Program-made: the position numbers and the translations under genes | Shown: positions 1 through 11,346 of the stretch, one piece after another | Numbering within the stretch: the stretch's first letter is position 1 | How the letters are laid out: each line of letters begins with the position of its first letter | The notes under the pieces: model-generated | Database searches by the model: none | Told to the model about the DNA's origin: nothing | The model's input: only the letters and a program-made list of their open reading frames with translations | Origin: an uncultured Collinsella sp. | GTDB taxonomy: Bacteria > Actinomycetota > Coriobacteriia > Coriobacteriales > Coriobacteriaceae | DNA: 11,346 nucleotides | Direction of reading: 5' to 3' | Assembly: GCA_900757265.1 (NCBI GenBank) | Contig: CAAENW010000275.1 | Location: forward strand, 1 to 11,346

Positions 1-1244
1 ACCGCATACTCGCAGCCTTTCTGGCGGCGATCGTGATCGAGTTTCTTAAAGAAATCATCGTTCTTGTGTTTGGTCGCGGTCTCGTCGTTCTCGTTTTTCA
101 TCTCGAACATGATCGAAATGATCTCGTTGCCGCTCTCGTCACACTCGCGGAAGATAAAGTCGCCCTTGGTACCCTCGGATGCATCGTTATCCTTCTCGAA
201 ATACGCGTTGGGAAACGCCGTCATGCGCAGGCGGTTAAACTCGGTCTCGCAGTGCTGCTCGAGCGACTCGCCCACCATCTTGGTGGACAGGCGGACCTTC
301 ATGTCCTTAAGGCGCTCAATCTCTTCATCCTTGTAGCGAATCAGTTCCTCGTTCGCGCGCTTGGTCTGCGCAAGTTCGAGCTCGTGTGCCGCCTTGGCCT
401 GCTCCTCGCGTGAATCGCGCACCGCCAGCTCACTCGTGAGCTTGGCGCGGGCCTCGTCACGCTCACGCTCCGCCGCGGCGACCGCCTCCGATAGGTTCAT
501 CTTGGCCGTCAGTTCCTGTTCGCGCAGCTGAGCACGCAGACCCTCGGCCTCCTGCTCGGACTGAGCCTTTGCGACGGAAAACTTCTCCTGAACCTTCGCG
601 CGATAGTCAGCAAGCGTACGTTCGGCCTCGCTGCGAGCGGCCTCGAGCTCACGCTGCGACTCGGCCGCAGCAGCAGCAAGCGCCATCTCCTGGGCCTTGT
701 CCGCCGCGGCGAGCCTGGCTTGCAGCTCGGCAATCTGGGCATCACGTGCGGACAGGTCGTTTTGAGCAGCATTGCGTGCCGCTGCCTCGGCAAGCCTGGC
801 TTCATCATCTTTGCGCCCCAACTGCGCACGCAGGTTGTCGATCTCGCGCTGCAGTTCGGCATTCTCCTTTTGAGCATCGGCGCGGGCCTCAACCGCCGCA
901 CGCTGGCTTGCACTCTCGCGCTCTGCGGCAGCGCCCTCGAGCTTGGCGCGCAGCTCGGCAAGCTCGGCATCGCGCTTGGCAACCTCTTGTGCCAGCTCCT
1001 GGGCCGCGGCGTTCTTCTGCTCGACAAGCTGAGCATCGCGTTGAGACTCCGCCTCCTGCAGGGCAGACGCCGAACGCGAACGCTCAAGCTCCAGCGCCTG
1101 CTCGCCCTCGCGTCGAGCCGCCGCTACGCGCTCATCCAGGTCACGCGAGAACTCGGCATCGCGCACTTGCTTGACGATATCTGCATAGCCGGACGCATCG
1201 ACCTTAAACACTTCGCCGCAATGCGGGCACTTGATCTCGTTCAT
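1..1244 (-). CDS. DUF2130 domain protein with N-terminal CxxC and long coiled coil (3' end outside window)
   Basis: The first 414 codons are present; the C-terminus lies beyond the left edge. The start at 1244 is chosen because GAGGAG stands five bases before ATG. The protein opens MNEIKCPHCGEVF, a single CxxCG knuckle (Cys6, Cys9). From about residue 28 to 310 it is almost entirely Ala/Glu/Arg/Gln-rich heptad-like sequence, predicted to be a long coiled coil. The final part (about 315-414) matches what I recall of DUF2130: a GDFIF segment with Asp about 362, then FEMK with Glu about 381 and Lys about 383, then KLDHDRRQKGCEYAV. The D...ExK spacing resembles the PD-(D/E)XK nuclease fold, but that is inference. 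No signal peptide or membrane segment is seen, so it is probably cytoplasmic. Family function is unknown; nucleic-acid or phage-related roles are only suggested by the fold. It is separated from the upstream metallophosphoesterase by a terminator. Confidence 0.85.
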   Translation of the reverse strand, partial: MNEIKCPHCGEVFKVDASGYADIVKQVRDAEFSRDLDERVAAARREGEQALELERSRSASALQEAESQRDAQLVEQKNAAAQELAQEVAKRDAELAELRAKLEGAAAERESASQRAAVEARADAQKENAELQREIDNLRAQLGRKDDEARLAEAAARNAAQNDLSARDAQIAELQARLAAADKAQEMALAAAAAESQRELEAARSEAERTLADYRAKVQEKFSVAKAQSEQEAEGLRAQLREQELTAKMNLSEAVAAAERERDEARAKLTSELAVRDSREEQAKAAHELELAQTKRANEELIRYKDEEIERLKDMKVRLSTKMVGESLEQHCETEFNRLRMTAFPNAYFEKDNDASEGTKGDFIFRECDESGNEIISIMFEMKNENDETATKHKNDDFFKKLDHDRRQKGCEYA

Positions 1245-1302
1245 GGCAGCTCCTCGATGGACGCAAATTTAAACCGTCTACACTCTACCGCGCCGCGCGG
1301 AC

Positions 1303-1337
1303 AAAAAAGGCGCCGCTGCCATAATGGCAACGGCGCC
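1303..1337 (-). terminator. Rho-independent terminator of the metallophosphoesterase gene
   Basis: Arms 1309-1321 and 1325-1337 form a 13-bp GC-rich stem with one C-A mismatch and a 3-nt loop. On the minus strand the stem is followed by six T residues (1308-1303). It lies 46 bases beyond the stop of the gene at 1383-1928 and before the DUF2130 start, so it separates the two transcription units. Confidence 0.8.
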
Positions 1338-1339
1338 AG

Positions 1340-1376
1340 AACCACCACAAAGGTGCCTGTCCCCTTCGTGGCGGTT
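1340..1376. repeat. REP-like imperfect palindrome
   Basis: AACCACCAC (1340-1348) and GTGGCGGTT (1368-1376) pair over 9 bp with one mismatch. The loop has short AAGG/CCTT complementarity and contains GGTGCCTGTCCCC. It sits between the stop at 1383 and the terminator. The GGGGACAGGCACC core (minus strand) resembles short intergenic palindromes often repeated through bacterial genomes, and shares GGGGAC with the palindrome at 11206-11249. Only one copy is visible here, so the repeat call is inference. Confidence 0.4.
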
Positions 1377-1382
1377 TGCGAG

Positions 1383-1928
1383 CTACAGGCCAAAGAAATT
1401 CAGGATCTGGTCTCGGCTTACGGGCTTGTAGTTGTTGGCGTCGAGGCCCACATCGTAGCGGTAAATGGGACGTTCGCGATCGCGGTTGCGCGCGTTGACG
1501 CGGTCTCCCCTGCTGTGGATATGTCCGTGCAGCATGATGGCACCGCGCGCCTTGCCATTCCAGCTGAGCATGGGGTAGTGGCTCATCACCAGACGATGGC
1601 CCTTGGCATAGCCCGGGGCAACCTCCAGGTAATCGCGCACCTCATCCCAAATGTGCGGCGCGTCCGGATCTTCCCAATCGCCGTCATGGTTGCCACGAAT
1701 GAGCGCCACGTTCTGGCATTTGATACGCTCGCGCAGGCGCACTGCCTCCGCCAGGGGCAAACGATAGGTAAAGTCACCCAAAATGTAGAGACGGTCGTCC
1801 GTCGCCACGCACTCATTGATGGCATCGATGACCTTGCGGTTCATCTCCTCGACCGAATCAAACGGCCGATCCATATCGTGCAAGATATTCGTATCGCCCA
1901 GGTGCAGGTCGGCGGTAAACCACATCAT
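1383..1928 (-). CDS. Calcineurin-like metallophosphoesterase
   Basis: This is a compact, probably two-metal phosphoesterase; substrate unknown. The motifs appear in the order expected for the family: FTADLHLGD at the N-terminus (Asp and His ligands), ILGDFTYR (GD), RGNHDGD (GNHD), MSHYPM (His) and LHGHIHSRGD (GHxH) near residue 135. An ATG at 1943 would give 186 residues but has no ribosome binding site. GAGGA lies eight bases before the ATG at 1928, with a second in-frame ATG at 1925. Starting at 1928 or 1925 also places the DxH motif at the extreme N-terminus, as usual in this family. The product is then 181 or 180 residues. No signal peptide is seen. It has its own likely -10 box (TATACT) and a terminator, so it is probably monocistronic. 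The exact role (nucleotide, phosphodiester or protein phosphatase) cannot be told. Confidence 0.9.
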   Translation of the reverse strand: MMWFTADLHLGDTNILHDMDRPFDSVEEMNRKVIDAINECVATDDRLYILGDFTYRLPLAEAVRLRERIKCQNVALIRGNHDGDWEDPDAPHIWDEVRDYLEVAPGYAKGHRLVMSHYPMLSWNGKARGAIMLHGHIHSRGDRVNARNRDRERPIYRYDVGLDANNYKPVSRDQILNFFGL

Positions 1929-1949
1929 CGTCTGTATCCTCATTTCGCA

Positions 1950-1974
1950 ACGTGTCTAACACGTGCCTAGTATA
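1950..1974 (-). promoter_or_regulatory. Candidate -10 box and overlapping palindrome before the metallophosphoesterase
   Basis: On the minus strand TATACT (1974-1969) matches the -10 consensus at five of six positions; no convincing -35 box is visible. Just downstream, over the expected transcription start, is a perfect palindrome ACGTGT-TAG-ACACGT (1964-1950). Its place suggests an operator or a short 5' hairpin. No regulator is identified. Confidence 0.4.
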
Positions 1975-1994
1975 CAGACGCTTTGGCGCGTCGG

Positions 1995-2174
1995 TTAGCC
2001 AAAGAGCCCACCGAACGGACCTCGGCGGCGTTTGTCTTTCTTTTTCGACGCGTCACCCTGGGCGTTCTTGTCCTGCCGCTTCTTCCGGTCCTGCTCCAAC
2101 TCATCGTCATCGAGCAGCATATCCCACTCAAACGGATCGTCTGTCAGATCGAACAGGTCGTCGTCATCAACCAT
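1995..2174 (-). CDS. Small charged hypothetical protein (59 aa)
   Basis: I do not recognise this protein. The start at 2174 is preferred over the ATG at 2186 because GGAGG lies just before it, and the upstream ATG has no binding site and contains this Shine-Dalgarno within its own first codons. The sequence is strikingly bipolar: the first half is very acidic (MVDDDDLFDLTDDPFEWDMLLDDDELE), the second strongly basic (KKRQDK, KKKDKRRR), and it ends GPFGGLFG. It has no membrane segment or cysteine. It begins 18 bases after the HIRAN gene stop, so the two are probably co-transcribed. The acidic N-terminus and basic tail suggest a disordered protein that binds a protein or nucleic acid, but this is only a guess. 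A short GACGC/GCGTC hairpin (1977-1992) follows its stop but lacks a T tract. Confidence 0.65.
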   Translation of the reverse strand: MVDDDDLFDLTDDPFEWDMLLDDDELEQDRKKRQDKNAQGDASKKKDKRRRGPFGGLFG

Positions 2175-2192
2175 GACCGCCTCCATTGCCGA

Positions 2193-2519
2193 CTAGCGGG
2201 CATCCACCACATAGAGGCCAACGCGCACCTGATGCCACGGGCTGCGCTCGGGAGCAACCTGCTGCACACGGGCTTCAAATACGTCCTCATGCCCGTAATA
2301 CATCATCAAGGACAGCGGGCCAACCTCGCTTCCCGGAACATAGCCAAGCTTGGTGTTGCCGTAATAGATCGCAACCGCCTCGGGGTCATGGGGATTATCG
2401 CGCTCGGCACACAGCGTCAGCTTATCGCCCACTTTAAGATCGCCCAAGACCAAGGCGCCATCGGCATACTGAAATCCTGCAATATGAAACGACAAAAGAA
2501 CACGTGAAGGCTCGTACAT
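2193..2519 (-). CDS. HIRAN-domain protein (108 aa)
   Basis: HIRAN domains occur in SWI2/SNF2 helicases and as small stand-alone proteins; in human HLTF the domain binds 3' ends of single-stranded DNA. Here the whole protein is one domain. The segment AERDNPHDPEAVAIYY followed by TKLGYVPGSEV is the characteristic 'R..NP.D..A(V/I).(V/I)....LGY(V/I)P' core. An upstream ATG at 2552 (119 aa) lacks a ribosome binding site, whereas GAGGAG stands five bases before the ATG at 2519, which gives MYEPSRVLLSF. No membrane or signal sequence. It is followed 18 bases later by the small charged protein, a likely two-gene operon. Stand-alone HIRAN proteins are often uncharacterised; a DNA-damage or mobile-DNA role is possible but not shown. 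Confidence 0.8.
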   Translation of the reverse strand: MYEPSRVLLSFHIAGFQYADGALVLGDLKVGDKLTLCAERDNPHDPEAVAIYYGNTKLGYVPGSEVGPLSLMMYYGHEDVFEARVQQVAPERSPWHQVRVGLYVVDAR

Positions 2520-2754
2520 GGCAACTCCTCTAACGACCGAATAAACCGGCACTTAACCTTACTGAGAAGCTTACGGGCCCGTGCGGACAAAATTTCACCC
2601 GCTCGCACCTTTCGCCCATTTGCCGCAACGCTTGCGAGACAGAGCGCTTGCAGATAAGATAGAGGCACGGATGGCACCCGTTGCAGCGGGTCTTGCCAAC
2701 TCCAGTGCACGTTTACATCGTGAGAAGTGGCCGTCTTCGCTTACGCGGGGGCGG
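2520..2754. other. Intergenic region without a supported large gene
   Basis: Open frames here are poor shadows without ribosome binding sites. Visible structures are a self-complementary ACGGGCCCGT (2574-2583) and a short hairpin with arms ACCCG/CGGGT near 2675-2695; neither has a T tract. It must hold the promoter of the HIRAN gene (minus strand), but I could not find a convincing -35/-10 pair. Confidence 0.4.
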
Positions 2755-2838
2755 CTATTTCATTCGGCCGATAAACAGGCCGAGTTCGATAGCCGCGATT
2801 AACAACGCCAGTAACGAAATAACATCGCTTACGTTCAT
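2755..2838 (-). CDS. 27-residue membrane peptide, possible type I toxin-like
   Basis: The reading frame is ATG to TAG on the minus strand. It encodes MNVSDVISLLALLIAAIELG followed by LFIGRMK. One hydrophobic helix (about residues 6-24) is flanked by an Asp near the N-terminus and a basic GRMK tail. This is the layout of small 'holin-like' or type I toxin peptides and also of small regulatory membrane proteins; I cannot place it in a named family. AAGGGA lies six bases before the ATG, and that binding site is buried in the hairpin at 2840-2864. It is transcribed in the direction of, and just beyond, the alcohol/aldehyde dehydrogenase operon, so it may be read from operon read-through or its own promoter. 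No antisense RNA or clear terminator could be identified. A 65-codon frame overlapping it (2741-2938) has no binding site and was rejected. Confidence 0.5.
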   Translation of the reverse strand: MNVSDVISLLALLIAAIELGLFIGRMK

Positions 2839-2839
2839 A

Positions 2840-2864
2840 CCAATTCCCTTCTAAAGGGACTTGG
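2840..2864 (-). promoter_or_regulatory. Hairpin sequestering the ribosome binding site of the 27-aa peptide
   Basis: On the minus-strand RNA, CCAA-G-TCCCTT (2864-2854) pairs with AAGGGA-A-TTGG (2850-2840): ten base pairs with one mismatch and a TAG loop. The Shine-Dalgarno AAGGGA is wholly in the 3' arm, and the stem ends one base before the start codon. Folding would block translation. Confidence 0.6.
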
Positions 2865-2896
2865 CCCATCCGTACCCCATAGCAGTAGTCTAACGT

Positions 2897-2940
2897 AAAT
2901 GGCAGGTAATAGGAACATTTGTTCGTATTACCTGCCATTT
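2897..2940 (-). terminator. Large hairpin directly after the aldehyde dehydrogenase stop
   Basis: Arms 2897-2911 and 2926-2940 are a perfect 15-bp inverted repeat (AAATGGCAGGTAATA). After one G-G mismatch there are four more pairs (GAAC/GTTC) and an ATTT loop. It starts one base after the ALDH stop codon, so a terminator or 3'-end processing and stability structure is likely, but the T tract is only three bases, so efficiency is uncertain. Its apex contains AACATTTGTTCG (2914-2925), which is repeated in the operon's promoter region. Confidence 0.55.
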
Positions 2941-2941
2941 T

Positions 2942-4321
2942 CTAATGCACGAATATGCGCACGAACTTGTGCTTCCAGCTCTCATAAGGGGCGTAGCGGA
3001 ACGGCACGTCCAGCCACGTTGCCTTGTTCACGATGCTCTTCTTGTGGCTAAACGTATCGAAGCTCTCGCGGCCATGGTACTGGCCCATACCGCTCGCACC
3101 CATGCCGCCGAAGCCCATATGACTCGTAGCCAAGTGCATGATCGTGTCGTTAACGCAGCCGCCGCCAAAGGGCACGTAGCGCACAAAGCGCTCCTGAACT
3201 GCGCGATCCTGGCTAAAGATATACAGGGCCAGCGGCGTCGGACGATCTGCAATAAACGCCTCGGCCTCATCCAGGCTCTCAAACGTCAGCACCGGCAAGA
3301 TGGGACCGAAAATCTCTTCCTGCATCACGGCGTCCTCAGGCGCCACGCCGTCTAGGATCGTCGGCTCAATCTTGAGCGACGACTCGCGCGCCGTGCCTCC
3401 CAGCACAACCTTGTCGGGGTCGATCAGCCCGCGCACGCGCGCAAAATGCTTGGCGTTGACGATATGACCGTAATCCTCGTTGTCGAGCGGATGCTCGCCA
3501 AACATGCGACGGGTCTCCTCCCTGATGAGGCCCAACAGCTCATCGTGTACGCGCGTATCGACCAGCAGGTAGTCGGGCGCCACGCAGGTCTGCCCCACGT
3601 TGAGCCATTTACCAAAGGCGATGCGCCGTGCCGCGACTTTTAAGTTTGCCGTGGCATCCACAATGCAGGGGCTCTTTCCGCCCAGCTCAAGCGTCACGGG
3701 CGTCAGGTTTTTACTTGCGCGCTCCATGACGAGCTTGCCGACCGAAACGCTACCGGTAAAGAAAATCTTGTCCCAGCACTCATCGAGCAGTGCTTCGTTC
3801 TCGGCACGGCCGCCTTCTACAACCGTCACCAGGCGCGGATCAAATGCCTCTTCGCAGATTTGCTTGAGCACCGCGCTCGATGCCGGGGCATAGGCGCTCG
3901 GCTTGATGACCACGGTATTGCCCGCGGCAAGGGCTCCAGCGAGCGGCTCGAGCGTCAACAAAAACGGATAGTTCCATGGAGCCATGATGAGCGTGACGCC
4001 ATAGGGCACGGCCTGCGTCTTACACACGCTCACGGCGTTGGCGAGGTCGCACGGGCGCAGGCGCGGGCGACTCCATCGAGCAACATGCGCAATCTGATGA
4101 CGAATCTCGGAAAGCGAGGTGCCGATCTCACACATATAGGCCTCGTCATGCGACTTTCCCAAATCGGTCTTGAGCGCATGGGCAATATCGGTCTCGTGTG
4201 CCCGCACCGCCTCGCGCAGGCGCACGAGGGCGCGACGTCGAGCATCGACATCAAACGTGGCGCGCGTCTTAAAGTAGGCGCGCTGTTCGCCGACAATGCG
4301 CGCGATTTCCTCGGTGTTCAT
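2942..4321 (-). CDS. NAD(P)-dependent aldehyde dehydrogenase, class 3-like
   Basis: Oxidises aldehydes to carboxylic acids using NAD(P)+. At 459 residues it has the short length of class 3 (ALDH3/YwdH/CALDH-type) enzymes rather than the roughly 490 of class 1/2. Visible motifs: APWNYP (oxyanion Asn about 117), NTVVIKPS (cofactor Lys about 140), FFTGS (about 187-191), LELGGKSP (general base Glu about 212), GQTCVAPDY (nucleophile Cys about 246), EEIFGP (about 334-339) and a GFGGMGASGMGQYHGRESFDTFSH segment typical of ALDH3. No CoA-acylating features or membrane anchor are seen, so it is likely soluble and cytoplasmic. AGGAGG precedes the ATG by four bases and overlaps the stop of the alcohol dehydrogenase gene. 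The two genes are eight bases apart and surely co-transcribed, consistent with sequential alcohol to aldehyde to acid conversion, or the reverse. The substrate cannot be told. Confidence 0.93.
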   Translation of the reverse strand: MNTEEIARIVGEQRAYFKTRATFDVDARRRALVRLREAVRAHETDIAHALKTDLGKSHDEAYMCEIGTSLSEIRHQIAHVARWSRPRLRPCDLANAVSVCKTQAVPYGVTLIMAPWNYPFLLTLEPLAGALAAGNTVVIKPSAYAPASSAVLKQICEEAFDPRLVTVVEGGRAENEALLDECWDKIFFTGSVSVGKLVMERASKNLTPVTLELGGKSPCIVDATANLKVAARRIAFGKWLNVGQTCVAPDYLLVDTRVHDELLGLIREETRRMFGEHPLDNEDYGHIVNAKHFARVRGLIDPDKVVLGGTARESSLKIEPTILDGVAPEDAVMQEEIFGPILPVLTFESLDEAEAFIADRPTPLALYIFSQDRAVQERFVRYVPFGGGCVNDTIMHLATSHMGFGGMGASGMGQYHGRESFDTFSHKKSIVNKATWLDVPFRYAPYESWKHKFVRIFVH

Positions 4322-4329
4322 GGGCCCTC

Positions 4330-5550
4330 CTAGTTCTCATCCTCAAACATACCACCCGCGACGACCTCGTACATACGCTCGAGCTCCAAACGGTCCATCA
4401 AAAGTGGAACGGGGTATAGCGGATTGGCCTCGGCATCGGCATGGGCCGCCATTTGCGGAATATCGGAGCGGCGAATGCCCGTCACATATTTGGGAATGCC
4501 CAAGGCGGCATTCATGCGGTCGACCCAATCGATAAAGGCCTCGGCCGCAAGACTGTCCTGCGCGTTAGCCGGCGCGATACCGGCCATGCGAGCAAGATCG
4601 GCAAGCTTGGGGGCGGCGGCGTCACCATAAGCGCGAAGCATGTGCGGCAGGATGATCGCGTTGGCCAAACCGTGCGGAATTCCGTATCGGCCGCCCAGAC
4701 TGTGCGCGATGGCATGCACGTATCCGACATAGGAGCGGGTAAATGCAACACCCGCTTTATACGCCGCCGAAAGCATATTGCGACGAGCGCGCATGTCGTC
4801 GCCATGCTCATAAGCCTCGGGCAAATTGTCGTGAATGAGCTGGACCGCCTGACGCGCCATCTTGCGCGTGTAGGGCGTGGTGCTACGGCCGATAAAGGCC
4901 TCGACGGCATGCGTCAGGGCATCCATGCCCGTCTGCCCCGTAATGGAGGCGGGCAGGCCGCGTGTAAACTCGGGGTCGTGCACCGCAAAGCGCGGGATAA
5001 GCACAAAGTCGTTAATGGGGTACTTGTAGTGCGTCTCGTCATCGGTAATTACCGCCGCGAGTGTGACTTCGCTTCCCGTACCGGCGGTAGTGGGAACCGC
5101 AATAAGCAGCGGCAGGAGACGGTGGACGCGCAACAGGCCACGCATCTTGTTGATGGGCTTATTTGGCTGTGCGATGCGTGCGCCCACACCCTTGGCGCAG
5201 TCCATGGCCGAACCGCCACCAAAGCCGATAATGGCCTGGCAGGCGCTCTCGCGATACAGGGACGCCGCTTCCTCCACGTTTGAGACCGTGGGATTCGCAC
5301 GCGTTTCGGCATAGACCGTAACGCCAATCCCCTGAGCCGTAAGCGCACGCTCGAGTGATGCCGTGAGTCCCAAACGAGCAATACCAGGGTCTGTCACGAT
5401 AAGGACCTTCTGGATCGAGCGCTTTTGAAGCACTGCGGGCACATCCTCGGCATGCTCCAAAATGCGCGGCTCGGTATAGGGCAGGATCGGCAATGCGATG
5501 CGAAAAACCGTCTGATATGTTCGGCACCAGGCGCGGCGGGCTAGATGCAT
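4330..5550 (-). CDS. Iron-containing (group III) alcohol dehydrogenase
   Basis: Interconverts alcohols and aldehydes with NAD(P)H. The start at 5550 (MHLARRAW, 406 residues) is chosen over an ATG at 5619 because AAGGAG lies eight bases before it; the longer form would also run through the promoter palindromes. Motifs: GFGGGSAMDCAKG (nucleotide binding, about 109-121), PTTAGTGSEVT (about 153-163), then metal ligands Asp210 and His214 in GMDALTHAVEAF, His279 in VHAIAHSLGG and His293 in GIPHGLANA. All four Fe-ADH ligands are present. No signal peptide; soluble. The N-terminal 30 residues (RAWCRTYQTVFRIALPILPY) extend before the usual family start and are common to one ADH subgroup. Its stop overlaps the ALDH ribosome binding site. 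Divergent to the rubrerythrin gene across 257 bases. Confidence 0.93.
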   Translation of the reverse strand: MHLARRAWCRTYQTVFRIALPILPYTEPRILEHAEDVPAVLQKRSIQKVLIVTDPGIARLGLTASLERALTAQGIGVTVYAETRANPTVSNVEEAASLYRESACQAIIGFGGGSAMDCAKGVGARIAQPNKPINKMRGLLRVHRLLPLLIAVPTTAGTGSEVTLAAVITDDETHYKYPINDFVLIPRFAVHDPEFTRGLPASITGQTGMDALTHAVEAFIGRSTTPYTRKMARQAVQLIHDNLPEAYEHGDDMRARRNMLSAAYKAGVAFTRSYVGYVHAIAHSLGGRYGIPHGLANAIILPHMLRAYGDAAAPKLADLARMAGIAPANAQDSLAAEAFIDWVDRMNAALGIPKYVTGIRRSDIPQMAAHADAEANPLYPVPLLMDRLELERMYEVVAGGMFEDEN

Positions 5551-5564
5551 AAAGGAAACTCCTT

Positions 5565-5602
5565 CATTTGTTGATAGGTCAACATTTGTTCGACCGATTG
5601 TA
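5565..5602 (-). promoter_or_regulatory. Promoter and operator-like repeats of the ADH-ALDH operon
   Basis: On the minus strand TACAAT (5602-5597) is a five-of-six -10 box; no good -35 is seen, as in activated promoters. Downstream is a palindrome TGTTGA-N4-TCAACA (5569-5584, plus-strand reading), and two direct copies of CATTTGTT (5565-5572 and 5583-5590) lie across it. The longer AACATTTGTTCG (5581-5592) covers the expected transcription start. A regulator site is likely but unidentified. Confidence 0.45.
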
Positions 5603-5695
5603 CTCATCGGCGTCCGCATATGGCTTGCAAATCGTTAATCAATCAACATCTTCACATGCCGAAAATTGTTTTATTAAAAATCATTCCTAATAGGC

Positions 5696-5723
5696 TTCAC
5701 ATTCGGTCGCATTTATGGATAAT
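5696..5723 (+). promoter_or_regulatory. Promoter of the rubrerythrin gene
   Basis: TTCACA (5696-5701) and GATAAT (5718-5723) each match the sigma-70 consensus at five of six positions with a 16-base spacer. This predicts a start near 5730 and a leader of about 78 bases. The leader contains a 7-bp inverted repeat CGTCCGG/CCGGACG (5742-5748 and 5766-5772) and a CGATC/GATCG pair around the Shine-Dalgarno. No clear Fur or PerR box was recognised upstream. Confidence 0.55.
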
Positions 5724-5807
5724 AGAACTCGTCAAGACGCACGTCCGGAGAGGGCCCTTACGGGACCGGACGAGCGCACCATCGCCATCGATCGAAAGGA
5801 TCGAATC

Positions 5808-6368
5808 ATGAAGTTTGTTTGCCCCGTTTGCGGTTATGTGGAAGAGTTCGACGGCGACCAGCTGCCCGAGGATTTCAAGTGCCCCCAGTGCGGCGTTCCC
5901 GGCTCTCGCTTCCTGAAGCAGGAGGAGGGTCAGCTCGAGTGGGCTGCCGAGCACGTCGTGGGCGTCGCCAAGATGGAGGGCGTCTCCGAGGACATCGTTG
6001 CTGACCTGCGCGCCAACTTTGAGGGCGAGTGCTCCGAGGTCGGTATGTACCTGGCCATGGCTCGCGTTGCTCATCGCGAGGGTTATCCCGAGATCGGCCT
6101 GTACTGGGAGAAGGCTGCCCACGAGGAGGCCGAGCACGCCGCCAAGTTCGCCGAGCTCCTGGGCGAGGTTGTGACCGACTCCACCAAGAAGAACCTCGAG
6201 ATGCGCGTTGAGGCCGAGAATGGCGCCACCGCCGGCAAGACCGATCTCGCTAAGCGCGCCAAGGCCGCTGGCCTCGATGCCATCCACGACACCGTGCACG
6301 AGATGGCTCGCGACGAGGCTCGCCACGGCAAGGCTTTCGCCGGTCTGCTCAAGCGCTACTTTGGCTAA
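5808..6368 (+). CDS. Reverse rubrerythrin (rubredoxin-like domain followed by diiron ferritin-like domain)
   Basis: A non-haem iron peroxidase: rubrerythrins reduce hydrogen peroxide to water with electrons from NAD(P)H through rubredoxin-type centres, protecting anaerobes. The product has 186 residues. The N-terminal rubredoxin-like knot has CPVCG (Cys5, Cys8) and CPQCG (Cys25, Cys28). The ferritin-like four-helix domain (about 45-186) has diiron-site candidates in FEGE (Glu72, Glu74), HEEAEH (Glu106/107, His110) and [10 protein letters not shown] (Glu165, Glu170, His173). Rubredoxin at the N-terminus is the reverse of classical rubrerythrin and matches the clostridial reverse type. Although the frame extends upstream to 5715, AAGGA lies before the ATG at 5808 and the protein starts at the rubredoxin motif. 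Codon choice is strongly biased (GAG, GCC, AAG), suggesting high expression. Monocistronic, with promoter and terminator. Confidence 0.95.
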
Positions 6369-6403
6369 GCCAGCCGCCTGAGAGATAATCTCTAGCTTGA
6401 TGA

Positions 6404-6433
6404 GGCCCGGACCGTATTGGTTCGGGCCTTTTT
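6404..6433 (+). terminator. Rho-independent terminator of the rubrerythrin gene
   Basis: GGCCCGGACC (6404-6413) pairs with GGTTCGGGCC (6419-6428) over ten pairs (one G-U) with a five-base loop, followed by five T residues. It lies 36 bases after the stop. A smaller AGAGA/TCTCT pair (6381-6393) precedes it. Confidence 0.92.
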
Positions 6434-6499
6434 CGTGCCTCACGAACTTGTTAACGCCCTGAAACAGGACCGCCTTCGGCATCGGCTTCTCGTCAAAAA
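6434..6499. other. Short intergenic stretch between terminator and repeat element A
   Basis: I see no gene or clear signal in these 66 bases. Confidence 0.3.
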
Positions 6500-6622
6500 C
6501 TAAGTGAGTAGACTTTTTTGAACTTGCCGAGCAGGCCATCCATATCACTTTATAAAGCCGCAGGTAAATGCCTTGTTACAAAACGGCCTGGTCACCAAAG
6601 TGCCAAAAGTCTACTCACTTAG
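6500..6622. repeat. Inverted-repeat-bounded element, copy A (123 bp)
   Basis: The ends are a perfect 18-bp inverted repeat: CTAAGTGAGTAGACTTTT (6500-6517) and its complement (6605-6622). Inside are CAGGCC (6532-6537) and GGCCTG (6585-6590), which can pair, and the blocks GAGCAGG, AAAGCCGCAGGTA, CAAAACGG and CTGGTC, shared with copy B at 7921-8042. The stop codon of the minus-strand gene 6611-7738 lies inside the right arm. It has no coding capacity. It could be a MITE-like element, a repeated structured RNA, or a 3'-end processing element. No clear target duplication is seen (only AA on both sides). Confidence 0.85.
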
Positions 6623-7738
6623 AACCGCAGCCGTCCACGATCGAGCTGTTTTGTGTCTAACGGGCATCTTTCCGTCGATTACTCCCAATTTTGTCCAGTC
6701 AACGAATAGTTCGGACCGGAGTAATGTCTCAGCCCTTTGCTCATCTGAACTTTTATCACGATATTCAGCATCGAGCATCCTGCATACGGCCTTAACGATC
6801 GCGCGGAATTTATCCTCATCGAATATCTGTCTGTGTGTCAGGAGAAGTACATCGTAGCCCATGGCCTGAAGGGCCGTCATGCGGTCAGCGTCACGCAAGC
6901 CATCCCCTGCGCGTCCGTGCGAGGCCTTTCCCTGACATTCAATGGCCACCTGTTGCCTGCCGTCCGGCGAAGACAGAAGTAGGTCGATATATACACGGGA
7001 CTTTCCCACAATCGCTCGAGCACTTGTGCTTAGCGTCACTTCGACATTGAGCTCTATGCCGCAAAAACCTTCGCCCCCTAGTGTTCGCGGCAGTGCAAAC
7101 AACAAATACGCCTCGACCTCAAAGGGCGATGCGGCGCCCAGCGGAACGAAACGCGACACCGCCATAAATCGCTTGCCGTACCGCATCCCGTAAACATCTG
7201 AACAAAAACGGTCGAGGTCTCCGCTCAAAACCAAAGCGTCGCGACGCCATAAATCTGAAGCGACGCCATCCTCGGACGGACAGCGTGTCCAGCCCGAAGT
7301 TGTCGGAATCGCGCCCGAATCAATTGCACGCGAAAGCTCCGCCTCGAGTGCCGCCGGCAGGGCACACACCGCAAACAAGCCACACATCTCCGCCAATACC
7401 AAAAGAAGCTGAAGATCCGTCAGATGCCGCAACATGATGAATGCCGTCAGTAGAGGAGACGTAATCAAAACCCCATGCTCCGTTTCCAGCACGGATTCCC
7501 TGGGAAGCTCACCAAGAAACAGCCGCTGCCTAATGCTGGCAGGACAAGTCCGTTTGTTTCTCGTCCGAACCAATGTATACAACGGAAAACCGAGCGCGAC
7601 CGCAGCCGTCGGGTTGCGGGCGAGATCATATCGCTGCCGGTCTTCTTCCGGTCGTGGAAGCGGCGGACACAAAGCGAGGGCTTGAGGAGGCAAACGCCAG
7701 TACCTAAAAGCCGATATGTCACAAAGTAGATCCTTCAT
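6611..7738 (-). CDS. Hypothetical protein with C-terminal DUF559/PD-(D/E)XK-like nuclease motif
   Basis: The product is 375 residues from the ATG at 7738; a GTG two codons upstream (7744) is possible. Neither has a clear Shine-Dalgarno. The C-terminal third reads SRVYIDLLLSSPDG, then QVAIECQGKASHGR, then DADRMTALQAMGYDVLLLTHRQI. An Asp at the end of one strand, an E-x-Q(-x-K) strand, and a later strand ending in T..Q form the arrangement of Vsr/DUF559-type PD-(D/E)XK endonuclease folds. The N-terminal part (ISAFRYWRLPP near the start; LLTAFIMLRHLTDLQLLLVLAEMCG further in) resembles AbiEi-type winged-helix proteins that often precede DUF559 domains in Actinomycetota, but this is weak. It is alone, without a partner toxin or antitoxin next to it. 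It lies between the two repeat elements and ends in Leu-Ser-Glu-stop encoded by element A. Possibly a defence or mobile-DNA gene; function unproven. Confidence 0.75.
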   Translation of the reverse strand: MKDLLCDISAFRYWRLPPQALALCPPLPRPEEDRQRYDLARNPTAAVALGFPLYTLVRTRNKRTCPASIRQRLFLGELPRESVLETEHGVLITSPLLTAFIMLRHLTDLQLLLVLAEMCGLFAVCALPAALEAELSRAIDSGAIPTTSGWTRCPSEDGVASDLWRRDALVLSGDLDRFCSDVYGMRYGKRFMAVSRFVPLGAASPFEVEAYLLFALPRTLGGEGFCGIELNVEVTLSTSARAIVGKSRVYIDLLLSSPDGRQQVAIECQGKASHGRAGDGLRDADRMTALQAMGYDVLLLTHRQIFDEDKFRAIVKAVCRMLDAEYRDKSSDEQRAETLLRSELFVDWTKLGVIDGKMPVRHKTARSWTAAVLSE

Positions 7739-7744
7739 AGGCAC

Positions 7745-7920
7745 AGGAAAACACGGATTTCAACCCGGGTACTCCCGCATTGGCGCGAACGTACCGAAAA
7801 GGGCGCCGAACGGACTGTTAAGTTTTCAACAGCCTTCCCCAACTGGCCAAAAGCTTGCCAAGAACTGGACGGAGTCCTGTTGAAAACCCGCTATTTCTCT
7901 CATGCGGAAGCTTTGCACAG
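7745..7920. other. Intergenic region with a 10-bp long-range inverted repeat
   Basis: GTTTTCAACA (7822-7831) and TGTTGAAAAC (7878-7887) are perfectly complementary around a 46-base loop, which itself contains TGGC/GCCA and two AACTGG copies. The promoter of the leftward nuclease-like gene should be here, but no convincing boxes were found. Frames running through this stretch have no ribosome binding sites. Confidence 0.45.
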
Positions 7921-8042
7921 CAAGTGAGTAGGCTTTTTGGAAACTCCCGAGCAGGCAGGCCATCTTGTCTTGCAAAGCCGCAGGTAGACGACTTGCTGCA
8001 AAACGGTCTGGTCGGCATAACGCCAAAAGTCTACTCACTTAG
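7921..8042. repeat. Inverted-repeat-bounded element, copy B (122 bp)
   Basis: This is the second copy, in the same orientation as copy A. The right arm (8025-8042) is identical to copy A over 18 bases. The left arm (7921-7937) has lost one T and carries one A-to-G change that leaves a G-U pair in the stem. The blocks GAGCAGG, GCCATC, AAAGCCGCAGGTA, CAAAACGG and CTGGTC are kept; the bases between vary. The pdxR stop codon lies in its right arm, exactly as in copy A. Confidence 0.85.
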
Positions 8043-9470
8043 GCTAGAGGGCACCCCCATTAGCTGTGATTCCAGGGTGTTTAGCGCATTTGGACTCAAA
8101 TCGTCATACTGGACAAGGATTCGAGCCAAGTTTTTAGGGACAGATGCGCCATCGGCACACCAAAAGCAGTCACCGATATCGATATAAGGGATATTCGAGT
8201 GCATAAGTGCCCGCGTAAAAGAGCTTCCGCCCGCGCCACGCTCCGCAACCACGATGCAGTAAAGGCCCGCGTCTGCATGCTCGATCGAGACCTCTCCTGC
8301 CGGAAATGTCTTCCGCACAAGCGCCGCCAGGCCATCACGCGCCTCGCGAGCACGAACACGCACGCGGTTCACATGTCGCTCGTAATCACCCGATTCCAGC
8401 AAACGAGCCAAAGCGACCTGGTCAACAGAGCTCACCGACGAGGCGTAAAAACCAAGGTTGTGCCTAAACCGCTCCATTAGCTCATCGGGCAACACCATGT
8501 ACGCTAGACGCAACGCCGATGACAGGCTCTTCGAAAACGTGTTGGTGTAGATAACCGACTGGGCGGCATCGATCGACGCGAGCGCGGGAATCGGCTTGCC
8601 GGCAAGGCGAAACTCACAATCAAAGTCATCTTCGATGAGATACCGACCTGGTCGCTCGGCGGCCCAGCTCAGCAGCGCATAGCGACGCGCAATGCTCGTC
8701 ACAAGGCCGGTCGGATACTGATGGGACGGCATCAGGTGAAGGACATCGGCCCCGGCTTTCTGCAGAACGCTCAAGTCCACGCCCTCATCATCCAACGGGA
8801 TATGTCGAACTTCGCAGCCCATAGCCTGATAGATGCGCGTCAGGCGCAAATAGCCCGGATCTTCAACGGCATACACCTTGTCGGCTCCAAGCAACTGAAC
8901 CAACATGGTATCGAGCAGCTGGGCGCCCGCACCGATGACGATGTTGTCGGGATTAACATTCATGCCCCGTGTCCCGCGCAGATGGCGAGCGATTGCGCGT
9001 CGTAGCCGAGCGGTGCCCTGTGCCGGCGCAGTCGAAAAGATTTCGCGTTCATCTTCAGATGCCAGCGTCGCCCGCAGCGCGCTTTGCCAAAGCCGCGCCG
9101 CCTCCAAAGCGGAAGGAGAAAGCGCATCGAATCGCTCGACCTGTCCGTTGACATCACGCGCACTGGGGCCCGCAGAGACGGCATCTCGGTCGATGCCCTC
9201 CGCAGCCGAAGCCAAAACCGGTGCATCCGGAAGCTCGCAAGCGTAGTAGCCACGACGCGGCATTGAGCAAATATAGCCCTCGGCAAGTAGCTGGCTATAT
9301 GCATTCTCGATGGTAATGACACTGATTCCCAGATGGCTGGCAAAGGCGCGCTTAGACGGAAGATGCTCCCCCGCCGCAATACGTCCAGCAACGATATCAT
9401 CTCGAATTTGCTGGTAAACATACTCATAGAGCGATGCCTCGCCGCGTTGTTCCAAATTGTAGTCAAGCAT
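8031..9470 (-). CDS. pdxR: MocR-family regulator of PLP synthesis (GntR wHTH plus aminotransferase-like domain)
   Basis: Known PdxR proteins use PLP as effector and control pdxS-pdxT, usually activating them when PLP is low. The product is 479 residues from the ATG at 9470, where AGGTGA precedes it by seven bases; an ATG at 9503 (490 residues) lacks a binding site and is less likely. A GntR-type winged helix covers about residues 10-80 (LYEYVYQQIRDDIVAGRI, then LPSKRAFASHLGIS, then GYICSMPRRGYY). A fold-type I aminotransferase-like domain follows, with AGAQLLD, EDPGY, MPSHQYPTG, IEDDFDCEFR (PLP-binding Asp) and NTFSKSLSSALRL, where the Lys near 314 would bind PLP. It diverges from pdxS across 145 bases, which supports the PdxR assignment over other MocR proteins. 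The last codons (Leu-Ser-Glu-stop) come from repeat element B. No enzymatic role is expected. Confidence 0.88.
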   Translation of the reverse strand: MLDYNLEQRGEASLYEYVYQQIRDDIVAGRIAAGEHLPSKRAFASHLGISVITIENAYSQLLAEGYICSMPRRGYYACELPDAPVLASAAEGIDRDAVSAGPSARDVNGQVERFDALSPSALEAARLWQSALRATLASEDEREIFSTAPAQGTARLRRAIARHLRGTRGMNVNPDNIVIGAGAQLLDTMLVQLLGADKVYAVEDPGYLRLTRIYQAMGCEVRHIPLDDEGVDLSVLQKAGADVLHLMPSHQYPTGLVTSIARRYALLSWAAERPGRYLIEDDFDCEFRLAGKPIPALASIDAAQSVIYTNTFSKSLSSALRLAYMVLPDELMERFRHNLGFYASSVSSVDQVALARLLESGDYERHVNRVRVRAREARDGLAALVRKTFPAGEVSIEHADAGLYCIVVAERGAGGSSFTRALMHSNIPYIDIGDCFWCADGASVPKNLARILVQYDDLSPNALNTLESQLMGVPSSLSE

Positions 9471-9481
9471 GAGTTTGTCAC

Positions 9482-9531
9482 CTGACCTTATCGAGTCATT
9501 CAATCTGATATTAGTCTGACCTTGTTATTAT
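9482..9531. promoter_or_regulatory. PdxR-pdxS divergent control region with CTGACCTT direct repeats
   Basis: CTGACCTT occurs at 9482-9489 and 9516-9523, 34 bases apart, with a related CTGATATT at 9504-9511. Direct repeats in the promoter are usual for MocR/PdxR binding. The second copy sits just upstream of TATTAT (9526-9531), a five-of-six -10 box for pdxS without a good -35, as expected for an activated promoter. The sites also lie near the pdxR start, so autoregulation is likely. Confidence 0.5.
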
Positions 9532-9615
9532 CTTGAAAACTGAGTATTTCGCCATACCCAGCTCCCCGATAGGATGTTCCGTCAAGCAATGCACATGCCA
9601 ACCAAGGGAGCAACC

Positions 9616-10506
9616 ATGGCAGAACAGACCAGCAAGGCCGATCGCGTCAAACTCAACCGCGAGCTCGCGCAGATGCTCAAGGGCGGCGTCATCATGGACG
9701 TCACCACGCCTGAGCAGGCACGCATCGCCGAGGAGGCAGGCGCCTGCGCCGTCATGGCACTCGAGCGCATCCCGGCCGACATCCGCGCCGCCGGCGGCGT
9801 GTCGCGCATGAGTGACCCCAAGATGATCAAGGGCATTCAAGAGGCCGTCTCCATCCCCGTTATGGCCAAGTGCCGCATCGGCCACATCGTCGAGGCACAG
9901 GTCCTTCAGGCCATCGAGATCGACTACATCGACGAGTCCGAGGTTCTCTCCCCCGCCGACGATGTCTACCACATCGACAAGACCCAGTTTGACGTCCCGT
10001 TTGTCTGCGGTGCCCGCGATTTGGGCGAGGCGCTGCGCCGTGTAGCCGAGGGCGCCACGATGATTCGCACCAAGGGCGAGCCGGGCACGGGCGACGTGGT
10101 CCAGGCCGTGCGCCACATGCGCAAGATCCAAAAGCAGATCCGCGACGTTGTTGCCCTGCGCGACGATGAGCTCTTTGAGGCCGCTAAGCAGCTGCAGGTT
10201 CCGGTCGAGCTGGTCCGCGAGGTCCATGCCACGGGCAAGCTCCCCGTCGTGAACTTTGCCGCCGGCGGCGTAGCGACCCCCGCCGACGCCGCATTGATGA
10301 TGCAGCTGGGCGCCGAGGGTGTCTTTGTCGGATCGGGCATCTTTAAGAGCGGCGACCCCGCCAAGCGCGCAGCCGCCATTGTCAAGGCCGTGGCCAACTT
10401 CACCGATGCCAAGCTCATCGCTGAGCTTTCGGAGGATCTAGGCGAGGCCATGGTCGGCATCAACGCCGACGAGATCGAGATCATCATGGAGGAGCGCGGA
10501 CGCTAG
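9616..10506 (+). CDS. pdxS: Pyridoxal 5'-phosphate synthase, synthase subunit
   Basis: Makes PLP from ribose 5-phosphate, glyceraldehyde 3-phosphate and ammonia delivered by PdxT, in a cytoplasmic 12+12 complex. The 296-residue length is typical. TIM-barrel features are clear: [20 protein letters not shown] with Asp28, [28 protein letters not shown] with Lys85, [11 protein letters not shown] with Lys153, and [27 protein letters not shown] as the phosphate-binding region. The two lysines correspond to Lys81 and Lys149 of the Bacillus enzyme, four residues offset, which fits. The start at 9616 follows GGGAG at five to six bases; the frame's earlier ATG at 9574 has no binding site. It is followed 20 bases later by pdxT in the same operon and diverges from the pdxR regulator. 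Confidence 0.98.
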
Positions 10507-10526
10507 TCCAGCAGAAAGGATCGCGC

Positions 10527-11114
10527 ATGAGCGATTACGCAGACCATACGGTCGCCGTGCTGGCGGTCCAAGGTGCTTTTGCCGAGCACGAGGCGAGGCT
10601 GTCCGAGCTGGGCGCACGTTGTATTGAGCTGAGGCAGGCGGCTGATTTGAAGCAGGACTTTGACCGCCTGGTACTTCCCGGCGGCGAGTCGACCGTTCAA
10701 GGCAAACTCCTTGCCGAGCTTGGCATGCTCGAGGATCTTCGTGCTCGCATTGCGGACGGCATGCCCGTCCTGGGCACCTGCGCCGGCTTGATCCTGTTGG
10801 CGCGCGATCTTGCCGCCCATGACGATAAGGGCACGCCGCGTTTGGCAACCATGGATGTACTTGTCGAGCGCAATGCCTACGGCAGACAGCTCGGCAGCTT
10901 TCGAACCAAGGGGCAGGTAGCCGGCATCGACGGTGAAGTGCCGCTGACGTTTATCCGTGCGCCCCGCATCGTCGAGGTCCACGGCGACGCCAAGGCCTTA
11001 GCGAAAGTCGACGGGCGCATCGTCGCCGCCCGCCAAGGCAACCAGCTCGGCGTAACCTTCCACCCCGAACTCGACGAAGACACCCGCCTCCACGAACTGC
11101 TCCTACAAATGTAG
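10527..11114 (+). CDS. pdxT: Pyridoxal 5'-phosphate synthase, glutaminase subunit
   Basis: A class I glutamine amidotransferase that hydrolyses glutamine and channels ammonia to PdxS. At 195 residues it has the normal length. Motifs: VLAVQGAFAEH at the N-terminus, LVLPGGEST (Gly-rich oxyanion strand, about 48-56), GTCAGLI with nucleophile Cys85, VERNAYGRQ (about 113-121), FIRAP (about 142-146) and FHPEL with His179 and Glu181 of the catalytic triad. All catalytic residues are present. AAAGGA stands six bases before the ATG. It is the last gene of the pdxST operon. A 7-2-7 inverted repeat TCCTACA-AA-TGTAGGA (11101-11116) covers the stop codon. Confidence 0.98.
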   Translation: MSDYADHTVAVLAVQGAFAEHEARLSELGARCIELRQAADLKQDFDRLVLPGGESTVQGKLLAELGMLEDLRARIADGMPVLGTCAGLILLARDLAAHDDKGTPRLATMDVLVERNAYGRQLGSFRTKGQVAGIDGEVPLTFIRAPRIVEVHGDAKALAKVDGRIVAARQGNQLGVTFHPELDEDTRLHELLLQM

Positions 11115-11127
11115 GAAGAACAGAAAC

Positions 11128-11191
11128 GAGAGTGGATAATCCCCCACCTTGAGCATGAATATGGGCTCATACCAGGAGATTATCCACTCTC
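11128..11191. repeat. 14-bp perfect inverted repeat after pdxT
   Basis: GAGAGTGGATAATC (11128-11141) and GATTATCCACTCTC (11178-11191) pair perfectly. The 36-base interior contains a smaller GAGC/GCTC hairpin. It lies 14 bases after the pdxT stop. No T tract follows on either strand, so it is not a standard terminator; a repeated intergenic palindrome or 3'-end stabiliser is more likely. Confidence 0.6.
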
Positions 11192-11198
11192 ATACTAT

Positions 11199-11249
11199 GT
11201 AGTCGTTGGGGACGTTCTTAAACGACTACTCAAACAAGAACGTCCCCAA
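11199..11249. repeat. Interlocking inverted repeats with mutually exclusive stems
   Basis: Stem 1 is GTAGTCGTT (11199-11207) with AACGACTAC (11221-11229). Stem 2 is TTGGGGACGTTCTT (11206-11219) with AAGAACGTCCCCAA (11236-11249). The arms alternate along the strand (1, 2, 1', 2'). With no bases between the first two arms a full pseudoknot is sterically doubtful, so the hairpins probably exclude each other. It could be a REP-like element or a switch in the leader of the next gene. Confidence 0.6.
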
Positions 11250-11257
11250 AGGGTCAC

Positions 11258-11263
11258 TATAAT
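11258..11263 (+). promoter_or_regulatory. Consensus -10 box before the right-edge gene
   Basis: A perfect TATAAT lies 44 bases before the ATG at 11308. No -35 box of good match is found 16-18 bases upstream, where the arm of stem 2 lies. Confidence 0.4.
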
Positions 11264-11307
11264 AAGGATAGAAAGGTCGTGAAAATACAAAACAGGAGGT
11301 TACACAC

Positions 11308-11346
11308 ATGAGGAAGCAGGAGCAAAAGGGTAAAATCACAGCATTG
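11308..11346 (+). CDS. Start of a gene cut by the window edge, possibly a large serine recombinase
   Basis: Thirteen codons are visible, MRKQEQKGKITAL, in frame to the last base. AGGAGG lies eight bases before the ATG, an excellent ribosome binding site, so this is a real start. Large serine recombinases of Tn4451/TndX-like mobile elements often begin with a few basic residues and then 'KITALY(x)RLSxDDE'. The K-ITAL here fits that start and is the only reason for the assignment; the catalytic Ser would be just beyond the edge. The leader from 11256 is visibly richer in A and T than the pdx genes, consistent with acquired DNA. Too little is seen to be sure. Confidence 0.4.
   Translation, partial: MRKQEQKGKITAL

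Follow-up and report, generated by a model that had tools for sequence, protein, structure and literature searches.

ERIC and Correia-type repeats are imperfect, intergenic palindromes of about 100-150 bp, like the elements described here, and to our knowledge no cognate nuclease belongs to them. Integron attC sites are characterized by an IntI integrase and GTTRRRY core sites, and REP sequences reportedly carry a tetranucleotide GTAG or GGAG beside each small hairpin. According to the available part of PMC3116915, the REPIN/RAYT system comprises short, dispersed, hairpin-forming inverted doublets in extragenic regions, a cognate enzyme and one repeat group per enzyme lineage. The founding protein of the PF18741 family is a giant HEPN/helicase fusion (PMC3710099, available part), unlike the nuclease treated here. 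The DNA analyzed is an 11,346-nt stretch of an uncultured Collinsella sp. (GenBank assembly GCA_900757265.1, contig CAAENW010000275.1, positions 1 to 11,346, forward strand), referred to as the window, in which two copies of a palindromic element, A and B, flank a gene for a Vsr-type, PD-(D/E)XK-like nuclease. Nucleases of this kind are associated with palindromes across the Coriobacteriia, and the pair looks like an undescribed enzyme-repeat partnership in the Collinsella group and its relatives. A literature search returned no title or abstract describing such a pairing, which is weak evidence as preprints and most subscription papers lay outside its scope. The features of the locus are as follows.

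6500..6622, no strand assigned: palindromic element copy A, with a 119-bp core (6502-6620) and 18-bp outer arms
6500..6517, plus strand: left arm of A, CTAAGTGAGTAGACTTTT, read from the sequence
6554..6565, plus strand: central motif of A, AAAGCCGCAGGT, near the midpoint or loop
6605..6622, minus strand: right arm of A, reverse complement of the left arm
6611..7744, minus strand: cognate nuclease gene, encoding a domain resembling the AbiEi C-terminal domain and a Vsr/EDxHD-type endonuclease
7922..8042 (best frame), no strand assigned: palindromic element copy B
7974..7985, plus strand: central motif of B, AAAGCCGCAGGT
8025..8042, minus strand: right arm of B

Copy A is located between the rubrerythrin gene and the 3′ end of the nuclease gene, copy B between the 5′ side of the nuclease gene and the 3′ end of a GntR/MocR gene. 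Both are imperfect palindromes of 119-123 bp with the same arms CTAAGTGAGTAGACTTTT; they share one orientation and align over 121 nt, free of gaps, at 79% identity, and the left 18 nt of A are 100% complementary to the right 18 nt of B. The arrangement proposed in an earlier note on the window, two copies with inverted ends around a PD-(D/E)XK-like gene, was thereby confirmed. The bounds given there for copy B had to be adjusted: the arms are shared, but the best frame begins at 7922 with GCAAGTGAGTAGG and departs from A in its first two bases and in one base of the arm. The stem arms comprise 38 nt in A (79% complementary) and 33 nt in B (73%), and each strand of either copy folds better than all 200 shuffled sequences (z -3.8 to -6.7). 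No other palindrome in the window with a span of 80-220 bp has at least 15 of 18 outer bases matching. The arm columns are mostly invariant in an alignment of 39 copies, and the window arm contains stop codons in all three frames (TAA, TGA, TAG). No open reading frame (ORF) can be assigned to the elements, as the note had stated, except that the arms supply the terminal codons LSE-stop of the nuclease ORF (6611-7744, minus strand) and of the GntR/MocR ORF (8031-9503, minus strand).

Searching the class for the nuclease resulted in matches at E<=1e-20 in 99 of 197 genomes and 38 of 93 genera. A set of 84 loci was compiled from the window, 43 loci of the genus and 40 loci of other genera. The genus loci were drawn from at least about 150 nuclease matches, mostly the stronger ones, with the orthologs of the window nuclease mostly left out; the other-genus loci, taken among the matches listed, comprise 20 that are full-length or nearly so and 20 that are mostly nuclease-domain matches. 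At 79 of the 84 loci, a palindrome with at least 15 of 18 matching outer bases is located within 450 bp of the nuclease gene, including one near-match (L177) that looks tRNA-derived; with the stricter cut-off of at least 16 of 18, 70 loci are retained. No palindrome was found under the looser cut-off and the same distance at L094, L156, L165, L180 and L191. The element is found 5′ of the nuclease gene, 3′ of it or at both ends, with no fixed operator position. Palindromes on both sides are present at 29 loci, and their arms match in 26 of these (unmatched: L067, L178, L183). The earlier suggestion that the element is paired to, or travels with, the nuclease gene is borne out by the recurrence of the pairing across the class, with arms that differ from lineage to lineage in a way not visible from the window alone.

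As a control, the remaining sequence of the genus loci (140.7 kb) was searched, which contains five palindromes at the stricter cut-off and none after shuffling. The 40 other-genus loci contain eight such matches far from the nuclease position, three of them within the nuclease gene span. Inside this span, palindromes with 16-18 of 18 matching bases were observed at L174, L175 and L183. Among 30 PF18741 loci outside the class, one has a palindrome at the stricter and six at the looser cut-off, with several of the genes overrunning the fetched stretch.

The arms differ between nuclease lineages and recur elsewhere in the genomes. Copies away from the nuclease were found for seven of the eight arm families searched, the window family included. 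In genome G018, four of the five nuclease-linked element families have extra copies, some of them partial, and the L090 type has none. In G014, a more divergent genome of the genus, a nuclease with 42% identity is encoded at a locus syntenic with the window (ALDH 81%, iron-ADH 75%, rubrerythrin 95%, PdxS 92%, PdxT 73% and GntR 58-66% identical). This locus has a single element, in the position of A, whose arms are unrelated to those of the window. The G014 arms occur at five places in that genome, including three intact pairs with arm starts 104-105 bp apart, and at one two-mismatch site in each of nine other genomes. Arms of a second further family were matched in 22 of 43 genomes, and in most cases they form pairs whose starts are separated by 106-108 bp. 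A solo element of G014 (G014:C11:537074-537195) carries the same two-base change in both arms, as if these had been changed together. Over 63 non-redundant loci, arm similarity rises with nuclease similarity (r=0.112, reached in 2 of 2000 permutations), and a smaller analysis of 28 loci was not significant (516 of 5000 permutations); both values are uncorrected for ancestry.

The arms are under strong constraint. At five orthologous loci, mean divergence amounts to 0-3.5% in the arms, 6-15% in the loops and 4-32% in the flanks. The same order is seen in genomes that lack a nuclease ortholog, with 6% (arms) and 16% (loop) at the permease locus in three genomes and 0% and 15% at the MAQTT locus in two. 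A central motif, AAAnnSCWGRTARAnnnnTTG, which was derived from these same elements, scores above the 99% null in 30 of 54 elements of the genus and in 6 of 29 and 6 of 25 outside it. In another family of the class, the nuclease-linked arms of L153 and L161 contain CTAAGTGAG or CTAAGTACG, resembling the start of the window arm.

Further copies of the window-type element, for which the earlier note had advised a search in related genomes, are present in the genus sample of 43 Collinsella genomes (the genus of the nearest genome). Copy A has matches at E<=0.01 in 23 of these, including G026, where only the centre matches. In four near-complete genomes (G002, G003, G008, G025), 44 arms with at most one mismatch form 21 intact inverted pairs and one split pair, corresponding to 4-7 elements per genome; a lone arm was not found there, and the reversed control gave no match. 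Of 45 distinct copies, 43 measure 119 bp between their outer ends and two measure 120 bp, in a search that admitted arm distances corresponding to about 77 to 155 bp. Among 84,980 species genomes, 51 stretches, each of them from Collinsella, contain the exact pattern of paired arms, with a span of 119 bp except for two of 118 and one of 120. At the inspected loci (simple ORF calls), the elements are intergenic and, where calls are clear, have one neighbouring gene or more ending (3′) next to them; a few long, spurious-looking ORFs overlap them. The split pair belongs to copy B of G025, whose loop is broken by a 1.5-kb insertion (L036, 3605-5222) with its own inverted ends, probably an ordinary insertion sequence (IS); it looks IS-like by eye and was discarded as a candidate autonomous element. 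Longer palindromes of 165-169 bp with arms like CTTTGGCAAAAATGAC were observed in G026 (L045, 3906-4070; L046, 3780-3944; L097, 2799-2967), and those of L045 and L097 visibly have the central motif of the window family.

The window protein models as an AbiEi-C-terminal-like domain fused to a Vsr/I-Bth0305I-type endonuclease. Five residues (E209, D254, E269, H276, R288) are invariant in 28 aligned members, putative active-site residues among them. None of the 28 members has a match in NCBIfam, and other libraries gave weak matches only, namely PF18741 of Pfam in 14 members and one unnamed PHROGs family in two. PADLOC gave no match for the window nuclease.

A nuclease ortholog (89-94% identity) is encoded in 16 of the 43 genus genomes, the same 16 that carry A; 15 of them have an intact B and one has B split by the IS-like insertion. 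Four genomes (G003, G007, G032, G034) have the GntR and rubrerythrin neighbours without B, nuclease and A, and the contig end of G004 is too close to judge this absence. By eye, the missing stretch extends past the elements by about 20 bp and about 60 bp, which is not a precise excision. The element of the permease locus is present in 15 of 21 close genomes (a truncated 22nd genome was left out), and its absence corresponds to a larger intergenic swap; at the MAQTT locus, G034, G032 and G013 lack the element together with part of both flanks. In the segment replacing or accompanying the window-type element at the permease locus, another palindromic repeat, GCCCCTAAGCG..., was observed (L233, L236, L237, L238). 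Only the nuclease was seen between matching ends, with no search aimed at DDE transposases.

Extrachromosomal and phage sources were considered as well. No match was found in phage records, and viral contigs contain neither exact paired arms nor a nuclease relative, only one lone 18-mer arm without a partner in a single contig, and a phage origin was dismissed on these grounds. Two Collinsella plasmid records, both outside the set of 84 loci, hold nuclease relatives. One is a 1785-bp circle (L253, NZ_OY725722.1) in which a truncated nuclease is fused to a portion of what may be a transposase and no palindrome at 15 of 18 or better occurs; it was rejected as an excised unit and is probably an assembly product. 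On the other, a plasmid of 30 kb, the nuclease gene is short, and the 8.4 kb fetched contain no such palindrome. By eye, no GTTRRRY site of the integron attC type is seen at the element ends (an integrase was not searched for). An intrinsic terminator was rejected by eye, without a scan, as no T-run follows the stem on either strand.

Two further repeats were observed in the window. Just past the 3′ end of the ALDH gene, a near-perfect palindrome with 21-nt arms AAATGGCAGGTAATAGGAACA... contains GCAGGTAATA (2897-2940), and intergenic repeats GAGTGGATAATC... and GTCGTTGGGGACGTTC... (11125-11260) resemble, by eye, repeats in the permease-locus DNA of other genomes.

Taken together, A and B may well belong to a small dispersed family of fixed length, with inverted arms that serve the nuclease between them as recognition ends, a proposal to which we give about even chances. 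The AbiEi-like domain, the nuclease fold, the palindromes on both sides, the private arms and the dispersal point to element-end recognition by the cognate enzyme. With a similarly balanced degree of belief, the pair may represent an undescribed selfish or domesticated system in which an AbiEi-like, Vsr-like endonuclease recognizes the arms of its own element and multiplies or maintains a small family of copies, arms and enzyme co-diverging so quickly that most Coriobacteriia lineages examined have private arms. The nuclease, perhaps as a dimer, would bind both arms, possibly in a hairpin or cruciform form with the central motif in the loop, and would nick or cut there; cut elements might then be copied, converted or occasionally spread among intergenic sites while arms and nuclease diverge together. 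Three observations weigh against this. Window-type elements persist in genomes without a cognate nuclease ortholog; the GntR-rubrerythrin, permease and MAQTT loci, where absences include flanks, yielded no clean empty site showing a target duplication; and the AbiEi match (AbiEi residues 65-194, mainly the C-terminal domain) misses the winged helix. Persistence and the lack of clean insertions speak for a host role or for old elements that seldom move, and because of them confidence in element-end recognition is moderate; many present copies are probably old and vertically inherited. The MITE-like mobility suggested earlier as one possibility fits the dispersed copies, without a clean empty site at these loci to go with them.

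The most substantial alternative, possible but on the whole doubtful, is that the palindromes are regulatory or structural DNA sites maintained by the host, that the nuclease acts mainly as a DNA-binding regulator, and that dispersal is ancient. It gains, and element-end recognition loses, some credence because the AbiEi match is not to the winged helix. The fixed span, orthologous element loci common to different species, arms kept in genomes without the nuclease ortholog and the missing clean insertions all agree with it, as does the autoregulation of AbiEi by inverted-repeat binding (PMC7319586, available part). It accounts poorly for the variable position of the elements around the nuclease gene, for arms wholly replaced between relatives and for the invariant putative active-site residues. 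That the element is a structured RNA, the other identity offered in the earlier note, and acts as a partner of the nuclease (guide, antitoxin or processing substrate) is improbable. The hairpins are strong, the central loop motif is common to many arm families of the genus, two inner-stem pairs show compensatory changes, only 2 of 500 shuffles attain the covariation score, and mismatches of the (related) window-type copies lean to one strand (21 vs 6). However, no Rfam covariance model matches the window above its gathering score, and none of seven weak matches at E<=10 covers A or B; the arm pairs of the window family are mostly invariant in sequence, 498 of 500 shuffles had at least as many pairs with two-sided changes as the four observed, and mismatches in nuclease-adjacent arms (14 G-U, 11 A-C) have no one-strand G-U bias.

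Two explanations leave the nuclease without a part. That a RAYT (HUH) transposase moves the repeats as ordinary REPINs is the least credible of all, although Y1_Tnp proteins are encoded in 37 of 43 genus genomes and the window arm contains GTAG, reportedly a tag of some REPs; by eye, GAGTAGAC is seen repeatedly, in many families. Y1_Tnp matches at E<=1e-5 are missing from G016 and G018, two genomes that nevertheless contain nuclease-linked palindromes, with dispersed copies in G018, for which reason RAYT-driven movement is disfavoured, and the matching of arms on both sides centres on the nuclease. That the association is a by-product of common intergenic palindromic repeats is very unlikely. 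In 152.8 kb of permease-locus DNA, 34 palindromes (15 window-type, 19 other) were found at the stricter cut-off, showing that such repeats are not rare in these genomes, and the eight far matches in other genera agree with this. However, the permease-locus density predicts a palindrome within 450 bp at about one in five loci, in contrast to the 70 of 84 observed, and chance provides no matching of arms on both sides.

If the proposed recognition of arms by the nuclease holds, dispersed palindromic repeats with an enzyme of their own would have arisen not just around HUH transposases but also around a hydrolytic nuclease of the PD-(D/E)XK type. The many private pairs of arm and nuclease would amount to a natural library in which each sequence-specific nuclease comes with its probable recognition site next to the gene, and a function would be provided for 'hypothetical protein' genes present several times per genome in many gut Coriobacteriia.

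When compared with described systems, the copies were not traced to any known insertion sequence or Rfam family, in line with the earlier impression of an undescribed family. The domain architecture differs from the EDxHD/Vsr-like homing endonuclease I-Bth0305I, as characterized in the available part of PMC3943268: the window nuclease is predicted to share the Vsr-like catalytic fold, but it is joined to an AbiEi-like domain, paired with palindromes and, as far as seen, located outside introns and inteins. With respect to the AbiE type IV toxin-antitoxin system (PMC7319586, available part), a nuclease domain is attached to the AbiEi-like part, and instead of an adjacent AbiEii nucleotidyltransferase toxin the window has rubrerythrin and GntR/aminotransferase neighbours. 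The MTES_1575 Vsr-type restriction endonucleases (PF18741; PMC3710099, available part) are alike in the weak Pfam matches mentioned above, whereas the PF18741 loci outside the class have palindromes in the numbers given above, several of the genes overrunning the fetched stretch. In organization, REPIN/RAYT is among the closest systems: the window elements are dispersed, hairpin-capable inverted doublets, but the linked enzyme is a Vsr-type nuclease and not a tyrosine HUH (Y1_Tnp) transposase, and the window family combines a constant span of 119 bp with a central motif and, in four genomes, with no more than 4-7 copies each. The mode of action may be REPIN/RAYT-like, with an unrelated, hydrolytic enzyme.
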